A stretch of DNA of 64,000 bases from Actinopolyspora alba (lineage in GTDB: Bacteria; Actinomycetota; Actinomycetes; Mycobacteriales; Pseudonocardiaceae). Under the pieces are notes generated by a model. It did not search any database, was not told the DNA's origin, and saw only the letters and a list, made by a program, of their open reading frames with translations. The stretch spans positions 62,001 to 126,000 of the forward strand of contig NZ_FOMZ01000008.1 in the NCBI RefSeq assembly GCF_900112765.1. Direction: 5' to 3'. Positions 4,673-32,797 of this stretch are shown in pieces (the first letter of the stretch is position 1; every line of letters starts with the position of its first letter). The position numbers were made by a program, and so were the translations under genes.

Positions 4673-6181
4673 TCAGGCGAAGCAGTACACCGTGCCGAAG
4701 TCGTAGCAATCGATCTGGTGCGTGGCCGAGCCGGTGGCACCCTCGTCGTCGGTGACGGTCAGCGTGGCGGTGAACTGGCCGCCGCCGTAGCTGTGGCCGA
4801 CGGTGCTTCCGGTCGCGGTGGCACCGTCACCGAACTGCCAGGAGTAGCCCACCACGGAACCGTCCGAGTCACTGGAGCCGGTGGCGTCGAAGTCACAACC
4901 GGCCGTGGAGCAGTTCACGGTGAACGAAGCGGTGGGAGCGCTGTTCTCCGGCGGCTGCGGGTCCCCACCGTCGCTCTCACCCACGTAGAGCAGCTTGTTG
5001 GGCGAACCGGCGCCGATACCGGAGATCTTGCCGGTGCTGGCGTTGTTCACCATGCTGTCGCGGACCTCCGCCGGAGACGCGGAGGGGGTGTCGGCGAGCA
5101 GCAGCGCGGCGGCACCGACGACGTGCGGGGTGGCCATGGAGGTACCGCTGATCGTGTTGGTGTCGGTGTCGCTGCCGATCCAGGCCGAGGTGATGTTGCT
5201 GCCGGGCGCGTAGATGTCCAGGCAGTCACCGTAGTTGGAGTAGCTGGCCTCGGCGTCCTGGCTGTTGGTGGCACCGACCGTGATGGCCTCCTCGACCCTG
5301 GCCGGCGAGTAGTCGCAGGCGTCGGCCGAGGAATTCCCGGCGGCGATGCCGTAGGTGACCCCAGCGGCGATGGAACTGCTCACCGCGTCGTCCACCGCGC
5401 TGCTGGCGGAACCGCCCAGGCTCATGTTGGCGACGGCGGGACCGTCGGCGTTCTGGGTGACCCAGTCGATGCCGTCGATGACGCCCGCGTAGGACCCGCT
5501 GCCCTGGCAGTCGAGCACGCGCACGCCGACCAGGTCGACGTTCTTGGCGACGCCGTACTCGGCACCACCGACGGTGCCCGCCACGTGCGTGCCGTGCCCG
5601 TTGCAGTCGTTGGCCACGGAGTCACCGTCGACGAAGTCGTAACCGCTCGAGGCACGGCCCCCGAAGGTCTCGTGGCTGGTCCTGATGCCGGTGTCGATCA
5701 CGTAGGCCGTGACTCCCGCGCCACCGTTGGGATAGGTGTAGGAGTCGTCCAACGGCAGATCGCGCTGGTCGAGCCGGTCGAGGCCGTACGAGGGCGGGTT
5801 GTCCTGAGTGCCGAGCGCGTGCACGCGGCGGTTCTGCTCGACGTACTTGACGCTGGGATCCGCCGCCAGCCGTTCGGCCGCCGTCTCGTTCATCGCGGCG
5901 GAGTAGCCGCGCAACGCGGTTTCGTAGGTCCGCTGGATCTCGCCTCCGTAGCGTTGGCTGAGATCGGTGGCCGCCGCACTCACTCCGCCGGGCCCGGTGG
6001 CCGCGGCGTCCTCGAAGACGACGATGTACTCGCCTGCCACGGCCGCCTCGGCATCGGCGTTCCTGATCTCGCCCGTCGCGGCCTGCGCGGGCAGTGCCGT
6101 GGCCAGACCGAAGGATGTCGCCACGGCGGCACCTAGGCACAGGCCTGCGAACCTGCGCCGCCCCGTTCTCGGGTGCTGCAT
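4673..6181 (-). CDS. Secreted subtilisin-family (S8) serine protease with PKD domain
   Basis: A 502-residue exported protease. A signal peptide ends near Ala-Gln-Ala at 32-34. An I9-type propeptide follows (about 48-122; Glu-Tyr-Ile-Val-Val-Phe). The peptidase S8 domain has Asp163 (Val-Ile-Asp-Thr-Gly), His197 (Gly-His-Gly-Thr-His-Val), oxyanion Asn283 and nucleophile Ser348 (Gly-Thr-Ser-Met-Ala-Thr-Pro). All catalytic residues are present. The C-terminal part (about 413-490) is a PKD domain with Tyr-Ser-Trp-Gln-Phe-Gly-Asp-Gly, often used to bind surfaces or substrates, and the protein ends in a short Cys-containing tail. ATG 6181 has AGGAGGAACG directly upstream, so the longer frame reaching 6433 is not needed. 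It resembles proteinase K/aqualysin-type extracellular proteases. It is a single gene with a 560-base upstream region. Confidence 0.93.
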   Translation of the reverse strand: MQHPRTGRRRFAGLCLGAAVATSFGLATALPAQAATGEIRNADAEAAVAGEYIVVFEDAAATGPGGVSAAATDLSQRYGGEIQRTYETALRGYSAAMNETAAERLAADPSVKYVEQNRRVHALGTQDNPPSYGLDRLDQRDLPLDDSYTYPNGGAGVTAYVIDTGIRTSHETFGGRASSGYDFVDGDSVANDCNGHGTHVAGTVGGAEYGVAKNVDLVGVRVLDCQGSGSYAGVIDGIDWVTQNADGPAVANMSLGGSASSAVDDAVSSSIAAGVTYGIAAGNSSADACDYSPARVEEAITVGATNSQDAEASYSNYGDCLDIYAPGSNITSAWIGSDTDTNTISGTSMATPHVVGAAALLLADTPSASPAEVRDSMVNNASTGKISGIGAGSPNKLLYVGESDGGDPQPPENSAPTASFTVNCSTAGCDFDATGSSDSDGSVVGYSWQFGDGATATGSTVGHSYGGGQFTATLTVTDDEGATGSATHQIDCYDFGTVYCFA

Positions 6182-6745
6182 CGTTCCTCCTGCTGATCGC
6201 GCCGCTGTCGAGCGGCGGGAACGGTTTCCGTCCACCGCGCACGCCCCGGGGTCTTCGGCACCCGACCCCGGTGAAGTGGCTGTGAACAGTGCCCAGAACG
6301 ATCGGCCCACGATCGCCGAGGAACAATCCGTGAAACCGTAGGTACGGATACTTAGGGAACGGAATTCGCCGTTCCCGGAATTCACCGACGGCCGAGCCTC
6401 GACAGTGGCAACCAACCCTCGTGCCCACCGCATTCGTGGCTGGAATCGGCGAGCTGCGAAGAATCACTCGGAGAGCCACACCGAACCGGTGCGGAAACAC
6501 GCCCCACTCCGGACACCGGGGACTTTAATACTGTTGTCACAACACGAAACCCTTACTCAGCGGTAGTAACGAATCGATTCACAGCGTCGGCCTTTCCGCC
6601 GCACACATCACGGAGATTTCGCGGTGCGCACGGAGTTGACAGTTTTCCCAACGAACAGGAAAACCGGGAAATACGGTACCGAAAAACCCGAGGAAAGCCG
6701 GCGGGGCGCGCCCGATACTCACCCGATGGTGTAACGCATTCGCCG
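6182..6745. promoter_or_regulatory. Gene-free promoter region of the protease gene, with two inverted repeats
   Basis: No gene is visible in these 564 bases between two minus-strand genes. The region is clearly less GC-rich than its surroundings. It holds a perfect 8-bp inverted repeat GGGAACGG/CCGTTCCC with a 6-base loop (6355-6376), and a 13-bp palindrome TGTTGTCACAACA (6532-6544). Both could be operators or structured leader elements for the protease. I cannot place a promoter with confidence. Confidence 0.4.
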
Positions 6746-8242
6746 CTAGGCGAGTTCGCCGTACTCACCGAACCAGTAGGCCAACCGCCCCCGTCGTCCC
6801 ACGGCACGGAGCCTGCGCTCGGTCGCCGCGCGCTTGGCGCTGGTGGTCACGATCAGCAGCTGGTCACCGATCGCGATCCTGCTCTCGGGTTGCGGCACGA
6901 ACACGGATCCGCCGCGGATCAGCAGGGCGATCACGCTCGGTTCGGGCAGCTGCAGCTCCATGACCGTGACGTAGTGCAGCCGCGAGCCCTCCGGGACGGA
7001 TACGGTCAGCAGCTCCGCGTCGAGCACGTCCAGCGGTGCCGACTCGACCCGCACCTCACGGGCCCCCTCCGGGGTGATGATCCCCAGCAGTCGCGCCACC
7101 GGACGCAGGCTCGGCCCCTGCACGAGGGTGAAGACGACGACCAGCACGAACACGATGTCGACCAGCCGATCACTGCCCCGCACCCCGGCGACCACCGGGA
7201 AGGTGGCCAGCACGATGGGAACCGCACCGCGCAACCCAGCCCAGGACAGGAAGGCGTGCTCGCGCCAGGGAACCCGGAACGGCAGCAACGAGCCCGCCAC
7301 AGCGAGCGGACGCGCCACCAGCAGCAGCACGGATCCGATCACGAGCGCGGACAGTACCTCGTGGTAGAGCTCGCTGGGATCGACCAGCAGCCCCAGCAAC
7401 ACGAACAGTCCGATCTGAGCCAACCAACCGAGCCCCTCGGCGAACGAGCGAGTGGCCGAGCGGTGCGGCAGTCCGGTGTTGGCCAGCACCACCCCCGCGA
7501 GGTAGGCGGCGATGAACCCGCTCGCCTGCGCCACTCCCGCCGCGGCGAACGCCAGCGCCCCCAGGCCGAATGTGGCCAGCGGATACAGCCCCGAGGCGGG
7601 CAGCGCTATCCGCGGCAGCACGAGAGCCCCGATGCTCCCGAGCAGCAGTCCGAACAGCGCACCGACTCCGAGCTGGTAGAGCAACGAGCCCACCACGTGC
7701 CACGGACCCATCAGCAGCGGGGTGGAGCTGAGCAGCATGACAAGGATCACCGTCGGCGCGTCGTTGAAGCCGGACTCGGCCTCGAGCAGCCCGGCGGCGC
7801 GCCTGGGGATCGGCAGTACGCGCAGCACCGAGAACACCGCCGCCGCGTCGGTGGAGGACACGATCGCGCCGAGCAGCAGCGCCAGCTGCCAGTCGAGCCC
7901 CAGCAGCAGGTTCGCCGCCAGCGCCGTTATCCCCGCGCTGACTCCGACGCCGAGGGTGGCCAGCACACCGGCGGGGGCGAGCACTCTGGACACGTCGGAC
8001 CACTTGGTGGTCAGCCCTCCCTCCACCAGGATGACGGCCAACGCGGCGGTGCCGAGGTTCTGGGCCAACTGCGGATCGTCGAGCTCGATACCCAGCCCGT
8101 CCTCCCCCAGGAGCATCCCCAGCACCAGGAACAGCAACAGGCTGGGCAGTCCGATCCGGGCGGCGAACCTGGTGGCGATGATGCTTGCCAGCAGAACCAC
8201 ACCGCCCGCGAAAAGGGCCAGGTAGAGCTCCTGCAGGCTCAT
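6746..8242 (-). CDS. CPA1/NhaP-type potassium/proton antiporter with RCK_C domain
   Basis: A 498-residue membrane protein with about twelve hydrophobic segments. It has the Na+/H+ exchanger pattern: an N-terminal Leu-Gly-Met-Leu-Leu-Gly-Glu-Asp-Gly-Leu-Gly, Glu-Ser-Gly-Phe-Asn-Asp-Ala-Pro in the transport core, and Leu-Arg-Gly-Ala-Val-Pro-Ile. The last ~90 residues form a soluble RCK_C/TrkA-C-like domain (Asp-Val-Leu-Asp-Ala-Glu-Leu onward, with Ile-Gly-Asp-Gln-Leu-Leu-Ile-Val). This is the layout of NhaP2/CvrA-type K+/H+ antiporters, in which the cytoplasmic domain senses a ligand or ion. ATG 8242 has GGGGACGAG before it. Single gene; a role in ion and pH balance fits a salt-adapted organism, but that is inference. 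Confidence 0.88.
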   Translation of the reverse strand: MSLQELYLALFAGGVVLLASIIATRFAARIGLPSLLLFLVLGMLLGEDGLGIELDDPQLAQNLGTAALAVILVEGGLTTKWSDVSRVLAPAGVLATLGVGVSAGITALAANLLLGLDWQLALLLGAIVSSTDAAAVFSVLRVLPIPRRAAGLLEAESGFNDAPTVILVMLLSSTPLLMGPWHVVGSLLYQLGVGALFGLLLGSIGALVLPRIALPASGLYPLATFGLGALAFAAAGVAQASGFIAAYLAGVVLANTGLPHRSATRSFAEGLGWLAQIGLFVLLGLLVDPSELYHEVLSALVIGSVLLLVARPLAVAGSLLPFRVPWREHAFLSWAGLRGAVPIVLATFPVVAGVRGSDRLVDIVFVLVVVFTLVQGPSLRPVARLLGIITPEGAREVRVESAPLDVLDAELLTVSVPEGSRLHYVTVMELQLPEPSVIALLIRGGSVFVPQPESRIAIGDQLLIVTTSAKRAATERRLRAVGRRGRLAYWFGEYGELA

Positions 8243-8471
8243 CTCGTCCCCGATTCTCGGCCGGAGGCCACCGTCCGACGGCGGCGAGCACCGGCACGCG
8301 CGTCGTCACGCAACGGTGGGTCGGCCATCCAGTACACCAAGATCACCGGAAACGCGCGGCAGCGACGCGACCGCCGGGGTGCGACGGGAAGTCGTGCCAC
8401 CGGAACCGCGGCGGGTGGCGCCGCACACCGGCACTACCCAAGAAAGCTACCGTACAGTAACATCACGCGGC

Positions 8472-8927
8472 ATGACAGCCGAGTTCGACTGGGTAGCCGA
8501 CGCGATGAACAAGACCGTTCCCTGGGTTTCCACCGCGGGGATCGAGTTCTCCGAACTGGAGCGGCAGCGGGTCGTGTGCTCGCTGCGGGACGTGGCAGCA
8601 CAGCGGAACCACGTTGGTGGCCCGCACGCGGCGGTGATGTTCGGGCTCGCCGAGACCGCCTCGGGCGCGGTGACACTCGCCGCGTTCACCCCGCTGCTGG
8701 AGCGCGCCACACCACTCGTCGCCCGTTCCGAGATCGCCTACCGCAAGCTGGCACTCGGCGACCTGACCGCCGAAGCGGTGCTCGGCCGTGAGATCGACGA
8801 GGTGCGCGCCGAGCTCGACGGCGGAACCCGCCCCGAGTTCCCGGTGCACTGCACGATCCGGGACGGCGAGCACAACACGACCGGCGAGATGACGGTGTAC
8901 TGGACGCTGCGGCCGAACGACTCCTGA
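8472..8927 (+). CDS. DUF4442 / PaaI-like hotdog-fold protein
   Basis: A 151-residue soluble protein resembling the DUF4442/YiiD C-terminal hotdog family. Visible features are Asn-Lys-Thr-Val-Pro-Trp at 14-19, an alternating helix/strand pattern with Gly-Gly-Pro-His-Ala-Ala-Val-Met-Phe-Gly-Leu-Ala-Glu-Thr-Ala-Ser (the hotdog central helix), and a final strand Met-Thr-Val-Tyr-Trp-Thr-Leu-Arg. Hotdog proteins of this type are acyl-thioester hydrolases or binders, but no substrate can be assigned. I start at ATG 8472 because the family begins close to this point; the frame is open further upstream without a ribosome site. It is followed at once by a bidirectional hairpin and a convergent NUDIX gene. 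Confidence 0.7.
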   Translation: MTAEFDWVADAMNKTVPWVSTAGIEFSELERQRVVCSLRDVAAQRNHVGGPHAAVMFGLAETASGAVTLAAFTPLLERATPLVARSEIAYRKLALGDLTAEAVLGREIDEVRAELDGGTRPEFPVHCTIRDGEHNTTGEMTVYWTLRPNDS

Positions 8928-8930
8928 GTT

Positions 8931-8957
8931 CGAGGCCGTCGCAGCAGCGACGGCTCG
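8931..8957. terminator. Bidirectional terminator hairpin
   Basis: Inverted repeat CGAG(G)CCGTCGC / GCGACGGCTCG with one bulged G and a 4-base loop. It sits directly between the convergent DUF4442 and NUDIX genes, 4 bases after one stop and 24 before the other. Confidence 0.7.
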
Positions 8958-8981
8958 CCCCACGAAGCTCTCGACAGCCGG

Positions 8982-9464
8982 TCAGTCCCACTCGCCCGGA
9001 TCGGCTTCGAGCAGGTCCGAGAGCCGTTCGAGGAACACCCGCTGGGCGGGCAGGATCCGGCGACTCGCCCGATCCAGGTCGAACCAGGCGACGCGGTCGA
9101 GCTCCGGGAACTCCCGGATCCGGCCCGACCCCTTCGGCCACTCCATCGTGAAGGTGCCGGGCACCATCGAACGCGGATCGATCTCGCCCGGCACCGCCCA
9201 GACCGTGACGACCTTGCCACCCGACTGCCGCGCGCTGCCCAGCGACTCGAAACGTCCGGCGGGCGGGTCAATCCCCAGCTCCTCGCGGAACTCCCGCCTG
9301 GCCGCCTTCCAGGCCGACTCCTCGGGGGTGTACTCGCCCTTGGGCACCGACCACGCTCCCTGATCACGGCTGCTCCACAGGGGACCACCCATGTGACCGA
9401 GCAGCACCTCGGCACCACTCTCGCGTCTCCGGAAGACCAGTATCCCGGCGCTGGTTCTGACCAC
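8982..9464 (-). CDS. NUDIX hydrolase
   Basis: A 160-residue NUDIX protein. The NUDIX box is complete and fits GX5EX7REUXEEXGU: it starts at Gly-Glu-Tyr-Thr-Pro-Glu-Glu and ends Arg-Glu-Phe-Arg-Glu-Glu-Leu-Gly-Ile. It is preceded by Gly-Ala-Trp-Ser-Val-Pro-Lys. This type cleaves nucleoside diphosphates linked to another group, using Mg2+ held by the box glutamates; the substrate is unknown. I chose GTG 9464, just before Val-Arg-Thr-Ser-Ala-Gly-Ile-Leu-Val-Phe. The frame is open to 9737, but that extension only translates the repeat element of locus 2 and is not protein-like. The ribosome site GGGAA falls in a decayed copy of the repeat hairpin. Confidence 0.85.
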   Translation of the reverse strand: MVRTSAGILVFRRRESGAEVLLGHMGGPLWSSRDQGAWSVPKGEYTPEESAWKAARREFREELGIDPPAGRFESLGSARQSGGKVVTVWAVPGEIDPRSMVPGTFTMEWPKGSGRIREFPELDRVAWFDLDRASRRILPAQRVFLERLSDLLEADPGEWD

Positions 9465-27843: not shown

Positions 27844-27921
27844 ACCGGTTCTTCCGGGTGATTCGCCGGTGCGACGTCAACGCATCGGACGATCGACAGC
27901 ACCGCGGTGGGAAACGGGACA

Positions 27922-28395
27922 ATGTCGGACGTGACCGCTTATGAGTCCGGCATGGAACTGCTGATCACCTTGGTGGTGGCCGCCGAGGACGAGGCGACGG
28001 CCCGTGATGCCTGCTCCGGCGTGGTCGAGCTCCTCGACGGCCGTGTGGTCCGAACGACCGACTGCTCCGACGAGGAGCCGGGCTGCCGTTCGGTGACGAT
28101 CAGTCGGAAAACGGTCGATCCGGGCACGGGTAACCCCTCGGCGACCCTGGCACGGGCGGTGCGGAACGCACTGCACACGCTCGGCAGTGGATTCACCGGA
28201 AGCCGGGTCTCCTGCGAACCGCCGAGCGCGTGGACGGTCGTCGACGCTCCGGAGCTGGTCGGCGAACTGGTCCCCGGCGGTGAACGCGTGCTGCTGGAGG
28301 CGTGGCAGACCGGCTCCACCGCCCCGAGCACCGGCACCGGCGCACCGGACACCTCCGACCGCTACCCGCGTCAGGGCAATCGGCGCCCCGGTTGA
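27922..28395 (+). CDS. Uncharacterised protein, about 157 residues
   Basis: I do not recognise a family. The protein starts at ATG 27922 (GGGAAACGGGACA upstream; GTG 27907 is an alternative). It has an N-terminal alpha/beta-looking stretch Leu-Leu-Ile-Thr-Leu-Val-Val-Ala-Ala-Glu-Asp-Glu-Ala-Thr-Ala-Arg-Asp-Ala, which reads like a strand then a helix, then two cysteines in Asp-Cys-Ser-Asp-Glu-Glu-Pro-Gly-Cys. The C-terminal tail is Gly/Thr/Arg-rich and probably disordered. Codon use matches the neighbours, so it is likely a real gene. It lies between the PRC-barrel gene and the small helical-protein/FtsK-like module, on the same strand. Confidence 0.6.
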   Translation: MSDVTAYESGMELLITLVVAAEDEATARDACSGVVELLDGRVVRTTDCSDEEPGCRSVTISRKTVDPGTGNPSATLARAVRNALHTLGSGFTGSRVSCEPPSAWTVVDAPELVGELVPGGERVLLEAWQTGSTAPSTGTGAPDTSDRYPRQGNRRPG

Positions 28396-28633: not shown

Positions 28634-28894
28634 ATGGCAGGTGTGGAAGAGGTTCGTGCGGGGATCGCACTCGCCAACCAGAAGGCATCGGAGAGCGTGG
28701 CCGCGTTACAACAGGCCACCCTCTCGCTGGAGGAGGCGCAGCAGGCACTGGCGACGGCCACGCAGGGCAGTGGACAGGAGGAGATCCAGCACGCCTACGG
28801 AATGCTGGCCGAGGCGGCACAGAGCCTCAACGGCATTCAGGGCACCATCAACGCCAGCATCACCTCGGCCGAGAACTACGCGGGACGGCTCTGA
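28634..28894 (+). CDS. Small helical-hairpin protein of the FtsK-like module
   Basis: An 86-residue, almost wholly helical protein: helix about 3-42 (Ala/Gln/Glu-rich), a turn Thr-Gln-Gly-Ser-Gly-Gln at about 43-48, and a second helix about 49-82. Size and hairpin shape recall ESAT-6/WXG100 proteins, but the Trp-Xaa-Gly turn is replaced by Gly-Ser-Gly and I see no Tyr-Xaa-Xaa-Xaa-Asp/Glu export tail. It has no cysteine or tryptophan and no signal peptide. ATG 28634 is preceded by a purine-rich GGAGGGGG, somewhat far upstream. Its stop is four bases from the next start, so it is co-transcribed with the second small helical gene, and an FtsK/EccC-like ATPase follows. I cannot assign a function. 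Confidence 0.7.
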   Translation: MAGVEEVRAGIALANQKASESVAALQQATLSLEEAQQALATATQGSGQEEIQHAYGMLAEAAQSLNGIQGTINASITSAENYAGRL

Positions 28895-28898
28895 CACC

Positions 28899-29150
28899 GT
28901 GTCGGCACTCGAAGAGCTCCAGCAGGCACTGCGGACGGTATCGGATCACCTCGAACAGGCCCAGCGGCAGCTGGTGACCTCGCGTACCGCGCTGCACCAG
29001 GCGGAGTCGGCGCTGCGGCGGATGGATCCGGACAACCCGGAAACCGTGGTGCCGCAGGGGATGCACCGCGCCGACGATCAGATCGAACGCACCCTGTCCA
29101 CGGTGGAGCGGGTGGACGAAACCGTTCGCCGGTTCGTCACCGGCTTGTAG
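28899..29150 (+). CDS. Second small helical coiled-coil protein of the module
   Basis: An 83-residue protein predicted to be two amphipathic helices (about 2-42 and 53-80) separated by Asp-Pro-Asp-Asn-Pro-Glu. The first helix has leucine heptads with Gln, Glu and Arg, as in a coiled coil; the second is strongly charged. No Trp-Xaa-Gly motif, signal peptide or membrane segment is present. The GTG start lies four bases after the previous stop, so the pair are probably partners, perhaps forming a heterodimer like the paired WXG100 proteins of type VII secretion. A perfect inverted repeat and about 295 bases separate it from the ATPase gene on the same strand. Confidence 0.65.
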   Translation: MSALEELQQALRTVSDHLEQAQRQLVTSRTALHQAESALRRMDPDNPETVVPQGMHRADDQIERTLSTVERVDETVRRFVTGL

Positions 29151-29167
29151 CGCACTTCGTGCTGTGG

Positions 29168-29203
29168 CGTGTCCGCGCGTGTCGAACGAGGGTCGCGGAC
29201 ACG
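29168..29203 (+). terminator. Inverted repeat between the small helical genes and the ATPase gene
   Basis: Perfect 10-bp stem CGTGTCCGCG/CGCGGACACG around a 16-base loop, 17 bases after the second small gene. It could terminate the two-gene transcript or attenuate read-through into the ATPase gene. No T run follows. Confidence 0.5.
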
Positions 29204-29445
29204 TCGCGTTCGGAACTCCGGCACCGCTCCCGACTCCGAGAGCGCTCGCGACGCGCAACGAGCGTTCCGCCGAGGACGAACGAACGTCCCGAGTGGAACC
29301 TCCCGAACGGGAGGTGGCTCGTGACCCCACCGCGGCGGGTGGGCATCACCCGACATACCTACGAGGAACGGCTCACACTGCCGACCGGACGATGTGATCG
29401 GTGGTACTTTGCTTACGGTCAGTGATGCGAGTACCGAGGTGGAGT

Positions 29446-32367
29446 GTGCGTAAACGCAACGAACGGCGCGGCGCCATCCAGGCAGCCTTCGATCGGCTGA
29501 GCGCCACTGCCGCTACGGCTCGTGGAGCGGCGGCCAACGAACTCGCGCGTGTCAGGGCGGAAAGCGCCAAGCGGGAACACGCGCTGCGCATCGCACGGCA
29601 CGGGGTCACGGCCACCGCACGCGATCCGGAGGAACTGGAGGGTTCGGAACAGGCCGAGTTCCGCCGCGCCCTGGAGGAAGCGGTCGAGGAACGTACCGAG
29701 GTGTTCTCCGAGTGGACCGCGCGTGGCCCGGGGCAGCTCGGCGAGCTGGTCGCCGAGGCCGCTCCCGGCACCGCCTCGGCACCGTGGCGGGAATGGCTCG
29801 GCAGCATCGGCGCGGCGGACGCCCGGACCCCCGCCCCCACGCTGTGGCGTTTCGGCACCGCCCACGCACCGGACGCTCCGGAGGCGGCCGAGTTCCCGGC
29901 GGCCGTTCCGCTGCTCGACGAGTCGCACCTGCGGATCACCTGCCGCTCCGGAACGTTGGAAAGCGCCACGAGGGACACCGCGGAATCGCTGGTGCAGAAC
30001 CTGCTGCTGCGCATGCTGTCCTACTACGAACCCGGATTGGTCCGGGTGCACGTCTGGGACACCGCACGGCTGACGGGCACGTTGCCCGGGCTGTTCCCGC
30101 TGACCCGTTCCGGACTGCTCACCGCGCACGATCCGACCAGACTGGACGACCTGCTGGAGGAGCTGGCCGAGCACATCCGCCGAATCCACACCACCGCGCT
30201 GCTCGGCGGTCACACCTCGCTGAAATCGCTGGCCGCCGAGACGGGTCACCGCGGTGAGCCCTGGCGGGTGGCGGTGCTCTTCGGGGACGGCGAACCGCTC
30301 AAGGATGAGCAGCAACAGCAGCTGCAACGTGTGGCGCGCAACGGGCTCGCCTGCGGGATTCAGCTGATCGTGGTGGACCTGCCGATGACGGTCAACAACG
30401 CGCTGGAATCGGTGACGCTGCTCGCCCCCGATCTGGCCCGCAGCAGCATGACCGGGCCACACCTGGCGATTCGCCCGGACGAGGTCCCGCCCCGGGAGCG
30501 CGTGAGCAGGGCCTGTTCCGCGATCTCGGAAACGTTCCAGTCCAGGCGCGCACGGGTGCGCACCTTCGACGACCTGCTCCCCGAAGGACTGTGGACGCAG
30601 GACTCCACCAGCGGCCTGTCGGCCCCGGTGGGATTCTTCGAGGGTGAACCGGTGCGGATCTCGCTCGGCGACACCAGCCCGCACACGCTGATCGGTGGGC
30701 CGAGCGGTTCGGGGAAGACGAACTTTCTGTACGGCATGCTCGGCAGCCTGGCCGCGCGGTACAGCCCGGACGAGCTGGAGATGTACCTGCTCGACTTCAA
30801 GGAAGGCGTGTCGTTCGCGCAGTTCACGCCCGGGAACCGGGACCCGAGTTGGCTGCCGCACGCACGGCTGGTCGGGGTCAACGTCAACACCGACCGCGAG
30901 TTCGGGTTGGCGCTGCTGCGTTTCCTCGCCACCGAGATGCGCAGGCGGGCCGACGCCGCCAAGGAGCAGGAAGTCACCAAGCTGGAGGAACTGCGGCAGC
31001 GGGATCCGAAGGGAAGATGGCCACGCATAGTGGCGGTGATCGACGAGTTCCAGTACCTGTTCGCCGAACGCGACGCGGTGTCCAGTCAGGCCGCCACGCT
31101 GTTGGAGGACGTCGCGCGCCGTGGTCGATCCCAGGGGATTCACCTGGTGCTGGCCAGTCAGGACGTTTCCGGGATCGAGGCGTTCTGGGGGAAGCCGGCC
31201 ATCTTCGAGCAGTTCATCCTCCGGGTGGCGCTGCCGAAGGCGCGCCGGGTGCTGGTGGACAACAACACCACCGCCCTGGAACTGCCCCGCTGGCACGCGG
31301 TGATCAACCACGAGTCCGGCGTGAAGCACGGCAACGAGGTGGTCCGCGTGCCGGACGCGACCGCTTCGGAAACGTTCGACTCGCTGCAGCACCGGCTCTG
31401 GGAGCGGCACCTCTGGGAGACCGGCAGGCGCAACGCCCTTCCACCCCGGCTGTTCGACGGTTCGCACCTGCCCGGTCTGATCGGCACGTCGGACTTCGAT
31501 GAACTGCGTCCGGTGACGACACGTCGTCCGAGGGTGCTGCTGGGGCAGGTGATCGACGTGCGGGGCACGGCAGCGGCGCTGTCGTTCGAGCGCTCCCCGG
31601 GGAGGAACCTGGCCGTGCTGGGCTCGGCCCAGGTGGACGCCACGGCGGTGCTGGGGACGAGCGCGCTCTCCCTCGGGCGGCAGTTCTCCCCCGGCGGGGC
31701 CGAGTTCACGATCGCGACGTTGACCGAGGACACCTCCGAGGACGCGTGGGCCGTCGCGAGCGCCCTGCGCGATGCCGGGCACACGGTCACTTTCATCGGC
31801 CCCGGTGAGCTCGGCGAGGCGCTGCGAGTACTGTCCGATCTGGTCGACGAACGCAGCGGGTCCGGTGGGGCGGGCTCGGAGACCGTGCCGCACTACCTGC
31901 TGTGCTACGCGGTGGACGCCGCGCAGTCGATGCTGGAGCGCAAGGACCCGGAGAGCAGGGTCAGCGGACTGGACCAGCTGCGCAAGACGCTCAAGCAGGG
32001 TCCGGAGTGCGGGGTGCACACCATCGGCTGGTGGCGCAGCGCCCAACGGCTGCGCAACACGCTGGGCATGGGACCCACCGACGACATCGGGGCCTGGGTG
32101 GCGTTCGACGTGCAGGGCCAGGAGCTCGCGCCGTTGGCGGCCGGGCAACTGATCACGTGGTCACCCCGGGTACATCGCGGCCTGTTCTTCGACCGTTCGG
32201 TGCACTCGCATCCCGAGGTGATCCTGCCGTTCGACCTCTCCGAAGCGGTGGACGGTTCCACCGGGGAGCCGGAGGAGGTCACGGCGGAGCCGAACAACCT
32301 TCCCAGACCACGCGGGCCGGAAACGGTTTCGTCCAACATCTCCGGGGAAGAGGCGACCGATGACTGA
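29446..32367 (+). CDS. Soluble FtsK/SpoIIIE (EccC-like) ATPase
   Basis: About 973 residues. An N-terminal coiled coil (about 10-60) and a long alpha/beta region precede one intact FtsK-type motor: Walker A Gly-Gly-Pro-Ser-Gly-Ser-Gly-Lys-Thr-Asn near 417-426, Walker B Val-Ile-Asp-Glu-Phe-Gln near 531, then Arg-Gly-Arg-Ser-Gln-Gly-Ile-His-Leu-Val-Leu-Ala-Ser-Gln. A second nucleotide-binding-like segment near 720 (Val-Leu-Gly-Ser-Ala-Gln-Val-Asp-Ala-Thr) lacks the Lys, as in the degenerate repeats of type VII EccC. No membrane helices are visible, unlike EccC and FtsK. I prefer GTG 29446 (AGGTGGAGT upstream); ATG 29425 would add seven residues. It overlaps the following coiled-coil gene by eight bases. 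It probably moves DNA or protein; which one is unknown. Confidence 0.8.
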   Translation: MRKRNERRGAIQAAFDRLSATAATARGAAANELARVRAESAKREHALRIARHGVTATARDPEELEGSEQAEFRRALEEAVEERTEVFSEWTARGPGQLGELVAEAAPGTASAPWREWLGSIGAADARTPAPTLWRFGTAHAPDAPEAAEFPAAVPLLDESHLRITCRSGTLESATRDTAESLVQNLLLRMLSYYEPGLVRVHVWDTARLTGTLPGLFPLTRSGLLTAHDPTRLDDLLEELAEHIRRIHTTALLGGHTSLKSLAAETGHRGEPWRVAVLFGDGEPLKDEQQQQLQRVARNGLACGIQLIVVDLPMTVNNALESVTLLAPDLARSSMTGPHLAIRPDEVPPRERVSRACSAISETFQSRRARVRTFDDLLPEGLWTQDSTSGLSAPVGFFEGEPVRISLGDTSPHTLIGGPSGSGKTNFLYGMLGSLAARYSPDELEMYLLDFKEGVSFAQFTPGNRDPSWLPHARLVGVNVNTDREFGLALLRFLATEMRRRADAAKEQEVTKLEELRQRDPKGRWPRIVAVIDEFQYLFAERDAVSSQAATLLEDVARRGRSQGIHLVLASQDVSGIEAFWGKPAIFEQFILRVALPKARRVLVDNNTTALELPRWHAVINHESGVKHGNEVVRVPDATASETFDSLQHRLWERHLWETGRRNALPPRLFDGSHLPGLIGTSDFDELRPVTTRRPRVLLGQVIDVRGTAAALSFERSPGRNLAVLGSAQVDATAVLGTSALSLGRQFSPGGAEFTIATLTEDTSEDAWAVASALRDAGHTVTFIGPGELGEALRVLSDLVDERSGSGGAGSETVPHYLLCYAVDAAQSMLERKDPESRVSGLDQLRKTLKQGPECGVHTIGWWRSAQRLRNTLGMGPTDDIGAWVAFDVQGQELAPLAAGQLITWSPRVHRGLFFDRSVHSHPEVILPFDLSEAVDGSTGEPEEVTAEPNNLPRPRGPETVSSNISGEEATDD

Positions 32368-32797
32368 GGCAGCGGGTGGTTCCGGGGTTCCCGAGGAACG
32401 GCACGGTACGGATACCGAACGCTACAAGGAGATCGTCGCGCTGGCCACCGACGCGGTGGAGCGGCTGCACGAGCTCGAACGCGATCGCGTCGAACGGCTG
32501 GAGCGGGAGCTGAGCGGTGAGCGCGACCTCGTCGAGCAGGCCGAGCAGCAGCAGGAGGAGGTCGAGGAAGGGGTCCGGCTGCGGTGGAACGCCGCCATGG
32601 AGGCGCTGTGGGAGGAACGCTGGCTGCGCGTGACGCAGCTGCCCGCGCCGGACACCACGGCCGAGCCCGCCGGCGCCGAGGACGCGATCAGGTCCGTGCA
32701 GCGGGCCTACCTGGACCTCTACGGGGAGCTGGAGCAGGGGCGCTGGTCCGCGCCGAACTGGATCCCAACCGGTTGGATCAGTCGCCGGGAGCGGTAG
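32360..32797 (+). CDS. Coiled-coil partner of the FtsK-like ATPase
   Basis: A 145-residue, highly charged protein. From about 22 to 75 it is a continuous heptad-patterned coiled coil rich in Glu, Arg, Leu and Gln. A helix with tryptophans follows (Ala-Leu-Trp-Glu-Glu-Arg-Trp-Leu-Arg-Val), then a second helix and a Trp-rich end (Ser-Ala-Pro-Asn-Trp-Ile-Pro-Thr-Gly-Trp-Ile). No known family is recognised. ATG 32360 overlaps the last eight bases of the ATPase gene, which suggests translational coupling and a direct partnership, for example as an adaptor or regulator of the motor. Confidence 0.7.
   Translation: MTEAAGGSGVPEERHGTDTERYKEIVALATDAVERLHELERDRVERLERELSGERDLVEQAEQQQEEVEEGVRLRWNAAMEALWEERWLRVTQLPAPDTTAEPAGAEDAIRSVQRAYLDLYGELEQGRWSAPNWIPTGWISRRER

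Follow-up and report, generated by a model that had tools for sequence, protein, structure and literature searches.

In the ESX type VII secretion systems (T7SSa), the ATPase EccC recognises the tail of EsxB, and a YxxxD/E motif near the C-terminus is the secretion signal of the WXG100 proteins. In T7SSb, the LXG and WXG polymorphic toxins have small partner proteins. Here we compare with these systems a module of four genes from Actinopolyspora alba (Pseudonocardiaceae), which encode two small proteins (A86 and B83), an FtsK-like ATPase and a coiled-coil protein. The module lies in a stretch of 64,000 nucleotides (contig NZ_FOMZ01000008.1, positions 62,001 to 126,000), referred to below as the window. 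A three-domain YueA-like kind of ATPase that goes with solo WXG proteins is described in footnote 6 to Table 1 of Zhang et al. (2012; PMC3482391). From the comparisons that follow, we consider it probable (roughly 0.6) that the ATPase of the module is a motor that handles hairpin-tagged toxins for export.

A conserved four-gene unit

The module has the following features (ORF, open reading frame; aa, amino acids).

28634..28894, + strand: A86, ORF of 86 aa; helical hairpin, founder of the hairpin family; C-terminus Y-A-G-R-L
28899..29150, + strand: B83, ORF of 83 aa with GTG start; second small helical protein, paralogue of A86; ends -TGL
29151..29424, + strand: intergenic gap of 274 bases between the B83 and ATPase genes
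29425..32367, + strand: ATPase of 980 aa with ATG start; N-terminal helices, degenerate FtsK-like D1, intact D2 motor, degenerate D3
30694..30723, + strand: Walker A of the middle motor of the ATPase, GGPSGSGKTN, residues 424-433
31024..31062, + strand: Walker B of the middle motor of the ATPase, RIVAVIDEFQYLF, residues 534-546
32360..32797, + strand: coiled-coil protein, ORF of 145 aa with basic C-terminal tail; 8-base overlap with the ATPase gene

These four genes are a real, conserved unit. In a set of 61 genomes (the window's own and 60 relatives; genomes and loci of the comparison carry the prefixes G and L), a long ATPase match of at least 48% identity is present in 34 of the 37 family genomes and in G050 of the same order, the match in G020 being split across two contigs. 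The A86 profile matches exactly these 35 of the 61 genomes. In a larger sample of Pseudonocardiaceae the ATPase occurs in 177 of 220 genomes (E<=1e-60), nearly always in single copy; with a wider ATPase profile, relatives turn up in 54 of 394 genomes across the class. Among named relatives, those from Actinopolyspora come closest (90% ATPase identity). The first-pass annotation had proposed conservation of the gene order as a check, and the small genes are indeed kept beside the ATPase. Among 80 named loci, the A86 gene adjoins the ATPase gene in 78; in 70 of these, A86 is immediately followed by a B gene of 81-87 aa. A coiled-coil gene lies 3' of the ATPase in 73, its start overlapping the end of the ATPase gene by 4 or 8 bases in 65. 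These counts come from profile and position searches, used in place of BLAST, which undercounts the partners (B83 in 17 of 30 loci). BLAST clustering of called genes over 81 loci gives A86 in 64, the coiled coil in 31, and B in 27 plus 13 in a second cluster; by this same cruder measure the commonest other flanking families reach 26 of 81. Since the gene set is kept beside ATPases of about 50% identity, the arrangement is not due to chance. The 162-aa ORF at 27907-28395, 5' of the module, has no Pfam match; members of its family accompany the module in 26 of 81 loci, and it is not a fixed part. Family-type ATPases were also seen in records titled Rhodococcus rhodnii (L110, 54% identity) and Candidatus Melainabacteria (L151, 63%). 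These titles may be wrong; L151 looks identical to the match in G020, a genome placed in the module's family.

The layout is largely as first annotated: the four ORFs lie on the same strand, with 4 bases between the A86 and B83 genes and the 8-base overlap further down. The gap before the ATPase had been given as 295 bases with a hairpin. That length fits a GTG start at 29446, whereas the gap to the ATG at 29425 is 274 bases, and near relatives keep the residues encoded upstream of the GTG. Folding of the gap is unremarkable beside that of shuffled sequences (minimum free energy -125.4 vs -118.2 +/- 5.1 for 50 mononucleotide shuffles), and a regulatory hairpin was rejected on this ground. None of the four proteins has a predicted transmembrane (TM) segment, the top 19-residue hydropathy being 0.55 for A86, -0.04 for B83, 1.28 for the ATPase and -0.07 for the coiled coil; the ATPase had rightly been described as having no membrane helix. 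It is the sole protein of the module over a Pfam cut-off (FtsK_SpoIIIE, 1.6e-24). As also stated at first pass, no gene for EccB, EccD, EccE or mycosin lies beside it among the ORFs inspected at 24-38 kb, eight of which, at 27.2-34.3 kb, were scanned with Pfam. A phage origin was rejected, since 80% coverage of the query is not reached by any phage record (46% for the best one listed), as was membership in a defence system, PADLOC matches being limited to the motor or a coiled-coil stretch.

Hairpin proteins and DddA-like deaminases

The small proteins had been annotated as having the size and hairpin shape of WXG100 proteins, without the WXG motif. The hairpin stands for A86, whose AlphaFold2 (AF2) model has helices at 4-42 and 49-85 with a predicted local distance difference test score (pLDDT) of 91.5, and 26 homologues align with it over 86 columns without a gap. 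Profile comparison by hhalign gives 95.5% (E 1.4e-8) between A86 and B83, which on this evidence are paralogues, and 90.2% between A86 and an 87-aa protein of family f32 (two f32 rows). The likeness to WXG100 does not extend to detectable homology, and homology was rejected: no model is over its cut-off and the profile comparison is weak. Neither protein matches PF06013 at E<=1, the locus is not among the 19 listed PF06013 matches of the genome, and TIGR03930 matches B83 only, at 14.8 bits vs a cut-off of 44.85. Against seven WXG100 rows, hhalign gives 4.3% for A86, 0.9% for the other small protein and 16.2% for f32 (two rows). Foldseek finds nothing for A86 at E<=0.001, the matches being generic hairpins with EsxGH among them. 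An iterated hairpin profile does match small proteins of the genome of L040 (6e-7) and of L344 (4.3e-6).

The A86 homologues end in Y-[AS]-x-R-L (Y in 22, R in 25 and L in all 26 of 26), and the YxxxD/E signal is not present near the C-terminus of this family. Similar ends are found in f32 (YSDSL, YSDGL), in Rhodococcus (YSSSL) and in the small proteins of an Hsp70 type of locus described below (FATSL, FASTL). At the B position, G050 (L039, 359 aa) and Micromonospora (L156, 355 aa) have longer proteins with a B-like start and a proline-rich tail; a known C-terminal domain was sought in the L039 protein and rejected, there being no Pfam match at E<=1.

Elsewhere in the family genomes, the A86 profile finds 86-aa copies, paired or in triads, together with proteins that have an N-terminal hairpin and a C-terminal DddA-like part; PF14428 matches six of the nine longer hairpin proteins scanned. 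A small A86-like gene lies directly 5' of some hairpin toxins (L201, L192). An Imm1 gene lies 3' of the L192 toxin, this being the only neighbour gene scanned for Imm1, and Imm1 is listed with the SCP1.201 deaminases (PMC3482391). In the genome of the window, all seven DddA-like proteins carry the hairpin (E<=9.1e-11), and for three of them a gene for an 82-aa partner ends no more than 12 bases upstream. The B83 profile, which played no part in recruiting toxins, gives 97.7% (E 2e-12) against the toxin hairpins, and no shuffled decoy reaches the E-values of the toxin hairpins. Among the 61 genomes, DddA-like genes are found in 24 of the 35 with the ATPase (23 over the curated cut-off) vs none of the other 26; in the family sample they are found in 101 of 177 ATPase-bearing vs 7 of 43 ATPase-less genomes (Fisher p 1e-6, uncorrected). 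Outside the family, DddA-like matches in the class sample sit in frames of at least 951 aa, with one exception of 133 aa.

Whether a toxin begins with a hairpin or with a membrane anchor varies with whether the genome has the ATPase. Where the ATPase is present, the hairpin is found on 50 of 58 evaluable toxins, none has a TM segment and 8 have neither; where it is absent, a TM segment is found on 10 of 11 and the hairpin on one (in G492); uncorrected Fisher p values are 1.2e-6 for the hairpin and 3e-11 for the TM segment. A toxin was evaluable if at least 55 residues preceded the deaminase domain, which holds for 58 of 69 toxins from ATPase-bearing and 11 of 14 from ATPase-negative genomes. 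The 69 come from 29 of the 30 loci of the relatives set (L226, below the curated cut-off, was dropped) and from 40 further genomes, each represented by its best listed match, with 7 other eligible listed ones left out. All 14 listed matches of ATPase-negative genomes were kept; the L325 gene is cut by its locus, and its copy in L275 has a hydrophobic N-terminal segment. The profile behind the hairpin calls was built by iteration from A86 homologues and so leans to the A86 family; the first-round profile alone gives 30 of 58 vs 0 of 11, and no decoy. A recheck of 22 of the 43 ATPase-less genomes by means of a wider ATPase profile found matches at <=1e-25 only as partial ones in ORFs of EccC length, in 6 of the 22.

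Hairpin genes also occur in other settings. In L200 (G030:C1:700000-710000) two hairpin proteins have a different C-terminal part, the one scanned having no Pfam match over the cut-off; these are possible other cargo types. In L188, L189, L190, L191 and L195, A86-like genes occur singly, in pairs or as triads, or form the C-terminal end of a longer ORF; by inspection, the stretches around them resemble integrative conjugative elements, and in some of these a TraB/FtsK-like gene is present.

The ATPase and its possible roles

The ATPase is best described from its sequence as three FtsK-like domains with Walker motifs in the middle one only. Walker A and B are intact there in 15 of 15 rows, and the segments of D1 and D3 that were inspected have no P-loop, though in some relatives one or other is weakly detected by the motor profile. 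The first-pass annotation was thus right about one complete motor and wrong about a degenerate second site, two degenerate domains being present, one on either side of the motor. In the AF2 model, which has a mean pLDDT of 70.5 and is poor over the motor, a helical N-terminal region is joined to three domains. The top Foldseek match of the model in the PDB is 4nh0, the cytosolic part of Thermomonospora EccC (E 6.7e-22), followed by EssC, FtsK and HerA. EccC outscores FtsK in both fold and sequence comparison, and the EccCa model cut-off is missed (91.2 vs 509.15 bits). In a tree of 52 motor domains, the window family, family f32, the Hsp70 type and two single sequences form one clade (99/96). 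This clade stands apart from EccC D1, EccC D2, EssC-like D1 and D2, and FtsK (three rows), in a tree with long branches in several rows and with TraB-type, HerA and relatives outside Actinomycetota left out; TraB-like ORFs match the motor profile weakly (4e-8 and 2.2e-6). The placement outside EccC and the lack of ESX partner genes agree with the initial suggestion that the module, made of T7SS-like parts with no predicted TM segment, would not be a secretion system as now defined. The wide clade includes L044 (G031:C1:4356000-4367500), which has a 1242-aa FtsK-type ORF followed by small ORFs that are WXG100-like by inspection.

That suggestion had left room for DNA or protein handling. A DNA-handling machine of the FtsK/HerA type, with the hairpins as structural partners and the domain shared with toxins incidental, would account for the FtsK_SpoIIIE domain, for the FtsK and HerA structures among the fold matches, and for a distribution in the family that looks like that of a housekeeping gene. 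It is very improbable, given that EccC is the better match in fold and sequence, that the motor falls outside the FtsK clade, and that the hairpin is common to toxins at E-values beyond every decoy. Nothing was found pointing to DNA. Protein handling is retained, with the hairpin-tagged deaminase toxins as candidate substrate.

We return to export of hairpin-tagged toxins, for which the module would be a T7SS-like substrate-handling machine with no membrane pore of its own. A86 and B83 may pair as a four-helix bundle like EsxA/EsxB. The ATPase would recognise the hairpin pair, probably through the conserved C-terminal A86-type tail Y-[AS]-x-x-L, much as EccC does with the tail of EsxB, and its middle domain would spend ATP in delivering or unfolding the toxin towards the envelope. 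The coiled-coil protein is a likely coupling subunit. A TM segment is present in all 10 coiled-coil partners found outside the family (L039-L042, L056, L058, L072, L074, L156, L334), the partner of L043 not being found in the same comparison. Among the 73 coiled-coil proteins of the named loci, only two have a TM segment, both in records named outside the family (Micromonospora and a Streptosporangiales metagenome-assembled genome), and 67 have at least three K/R in the last 12 residues. Since outside relatives have a TM segment and the family none, the membrane tether of the system seems to have lost its TM segment in this family; with only the basic tail left, the protein would dock on the membrane or another complex.

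A rival reading involves the ordinary ESX apparatus of the genome. Soluble EccCb works with EccCa, and the module could likewise be an accessory motor that loads hairpin-tagged cargo into an EccB/C/D/E pore. The genome has an ESX-like locus (EccC, EccB-like, mycosin-like and WXG100 matches, EccB and mycosin by inspection) and a second EccC locus, the module proteins are TM-free, and EccC is the top fold match of the ATPase. We regard this as unlikely, however, as the motor clade is separate from EccC and the hairpins are not detectably WXG100. Moreover, toxins of ATPase-less genomes carry TM anchors though some of these genomes have EccC-like ORFs; the 6 of 22 noted above (E<=1e-25) include G485, which has toxins of the anchored type.

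Export itself would be absent if the module were an intracellular conflict system, in which the ATPase restrains or activates hairpin-deaminases in the producer, for example on phage infection. The lack of TM segments in all four proteins would suit this, as would the top PADLOC match of the motor (SspH, 6.8e-20, residues 416-579 only) and the surroundings of a Caballeronia relative, which sits among CARF, VWA, PP2C and kinase genes. Yet the toxins resemble polymorphic toxins, one with Imm1, the DddA-like proteins of ATPase-less genomes bear an N-terminal membrane or export segment, and the coiled-coil partners outside the family have TM segments. This makes a purely intracellular role quite improbable, and less probable than the ESX accessory.

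Several observations weigh against a motor for toxin export. The proposed link between ATPase and toxins rests on a shared domain and on co-occurrence, and no toxin gene was found in the operon or among the ORFs inspected at 24-38 kb. An rpoB tree of 29 genomes yields one independent pair on starred branches and two on all; because only one or two independent contrasts exist, phylogeny-corrected significance is unreachable, which is the main limit of the case. The ATPase-less genome G492 carries a hairpin toxin, 8 of the 58 toxins of ATPase-bearing genomes fit neither class, and 76 of the 177 ATPase-bearing genomes have no DddA-like match, which means that there must be clients other than deaminases. 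AF2 models the ATPase poorly (predicted TM-score 0.42; pLDDT below 50 at 376-485 and 581-649), the match to 4nh0 has a TM-score of only 0.22 (root-mean-square deviation 28.9), the Foldseek match of A86 to CFP10-ESAT6 is non-significant (E 0.24), and A86 compares weakly with the small proteins of the Hsp70 type (18.9%; four rows including Rhodococcus). In favor of toxin handling, a Helicobacter plasmid row joins a WXG100-like protein, a nuclease, SUKH and an FtsK-type ATPase.

A broader proposal is more tentative and, in our estimate, somewhat doubtful: the module may belong to an undescribed actinobacterial toxin route with a TM-free EccC-like motor, a non-WXG hairpin code and a channel that is non-ESX or borrowed. 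The cargo would be DNA-deaminase and other toxins, and absence of the route would go with re-tagging of toxins with membrane anchors. Toxin handling by the module would show how a large set of DddA-like deaminases is likely to be trafficked, a class that draws interest in base editing and in mutagenesis between bacteria. The module would also provide a minimal type VII-like machine for comparison with ESX. Because the front end of the toxins is swapped with the presence of the ATPase, the purpose of the ATPase is directly testable.

Comparison with described systems

Like EccC of ESX, the module ATPase has three ATPase domains, 4nh0 as its top fold match and a pair of small helical proteins encoded alongside. 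Unlike EccC, it has no TM segment, scores under the EccCa cut-off, falls in a separate clade and has only its middle domain intact, and no EccB/D/E or mycosin gene was seen beside it. With the LXG/WXG toxins of T7SSb, the hairpin toxins share an N-terminal helical domain, a small helical partner gene 5' of the toxin and an immunity gene. They differ in that the hairpin is of another family and that the module goes with a TM-free ATPase, not with membrane EssC.

In plasmids, tblastn finds ATPase relatives in 315 records, none covering 80%. The row of Helicobacter pNHP190012_1 comprises a WXG100-like protein (24.0 bits, cut-off 27.3), a WHH nuclease, SUKH, a 77-aa protein and an FtsK-type ATPase of 823 aa; that of Caballeronia pSBC2-5 has a WXG100 protein (30.8 bits, cut-off 27.3), three more genes and an ATPase of 927 aa. 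Both resemble the module in having an FtsK/SpoIIIE ATPase, in their case near WXG100-type proteins, the Helicobacter row also having a nuclease toxin and SUKH. They differ in being plasmid-borne, in that WXG100 is still recognisable and in that the toxin lies within the row. The CARF (DUF1887), VWA, PP2C and kinase genes of the Caballeronia row (L332) hint at a regulated conflict system.

In the Hsp70-type rows (L040-L042; L334), a coiled-coil partner and a small protein of 86-89 aa ending in [YF]-[AS]-x-x-L are shared with the module, and the motors of L040-L042 belong to the same wide clade. The Rhodococcus plasmid row L334 consists of Hsp70, J-like/TPR, GrpE, the ATPase, a TM coiled coil, an 86-aa small protein and a 272-aa protein. 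These rows differ from the module in the added Hsp70 (in L334 also J-like/TPR and GrpE), in the TM segment of the coiled coil and in a small protein that is only weakly A86-like. The second EccC locus of the window's genome (L251, G000:C36:23000-42500) has between EccC and a WXG100 pair a gene that is Hsp70-like by inspection, which recalls the Hsp70-type rows.

Among the papers listed by searches of the open PMC subset, none apart from the 2012 footnote was recognisably on this actinobacterial module or on its deaminase link. As far as the footnote describes it, the module is alike in its three tandem FtsK-like domains, with the middle one intact and by prediction active, and in its small helical partner genes. 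What the footnote says of the ATPase applies to the module, but the WXG part does not, as its partners match no WXG100 model, unlike the solo WXG partner of the footnote. It differs further in lying on a chromosomal contig, in being found in 177 of the 220 genomes sampled from a single actinobacterial family, which would speak against mobility of this locus, a feature of the 2012 kind, and in its link to DddA-like toxins elsewhere in the genome. In L341 (G404:C155:74500-90000, at 5640-9162), a wide-group ATPase (1088-aa open frame) lies immediately before an 87-aa protein that contains a WSG motif, so WXG-type partners exist among actinobacterial relatives too. By its predicted proteins, L341 is an actinobacterial case nearer the solo-WXG kind.

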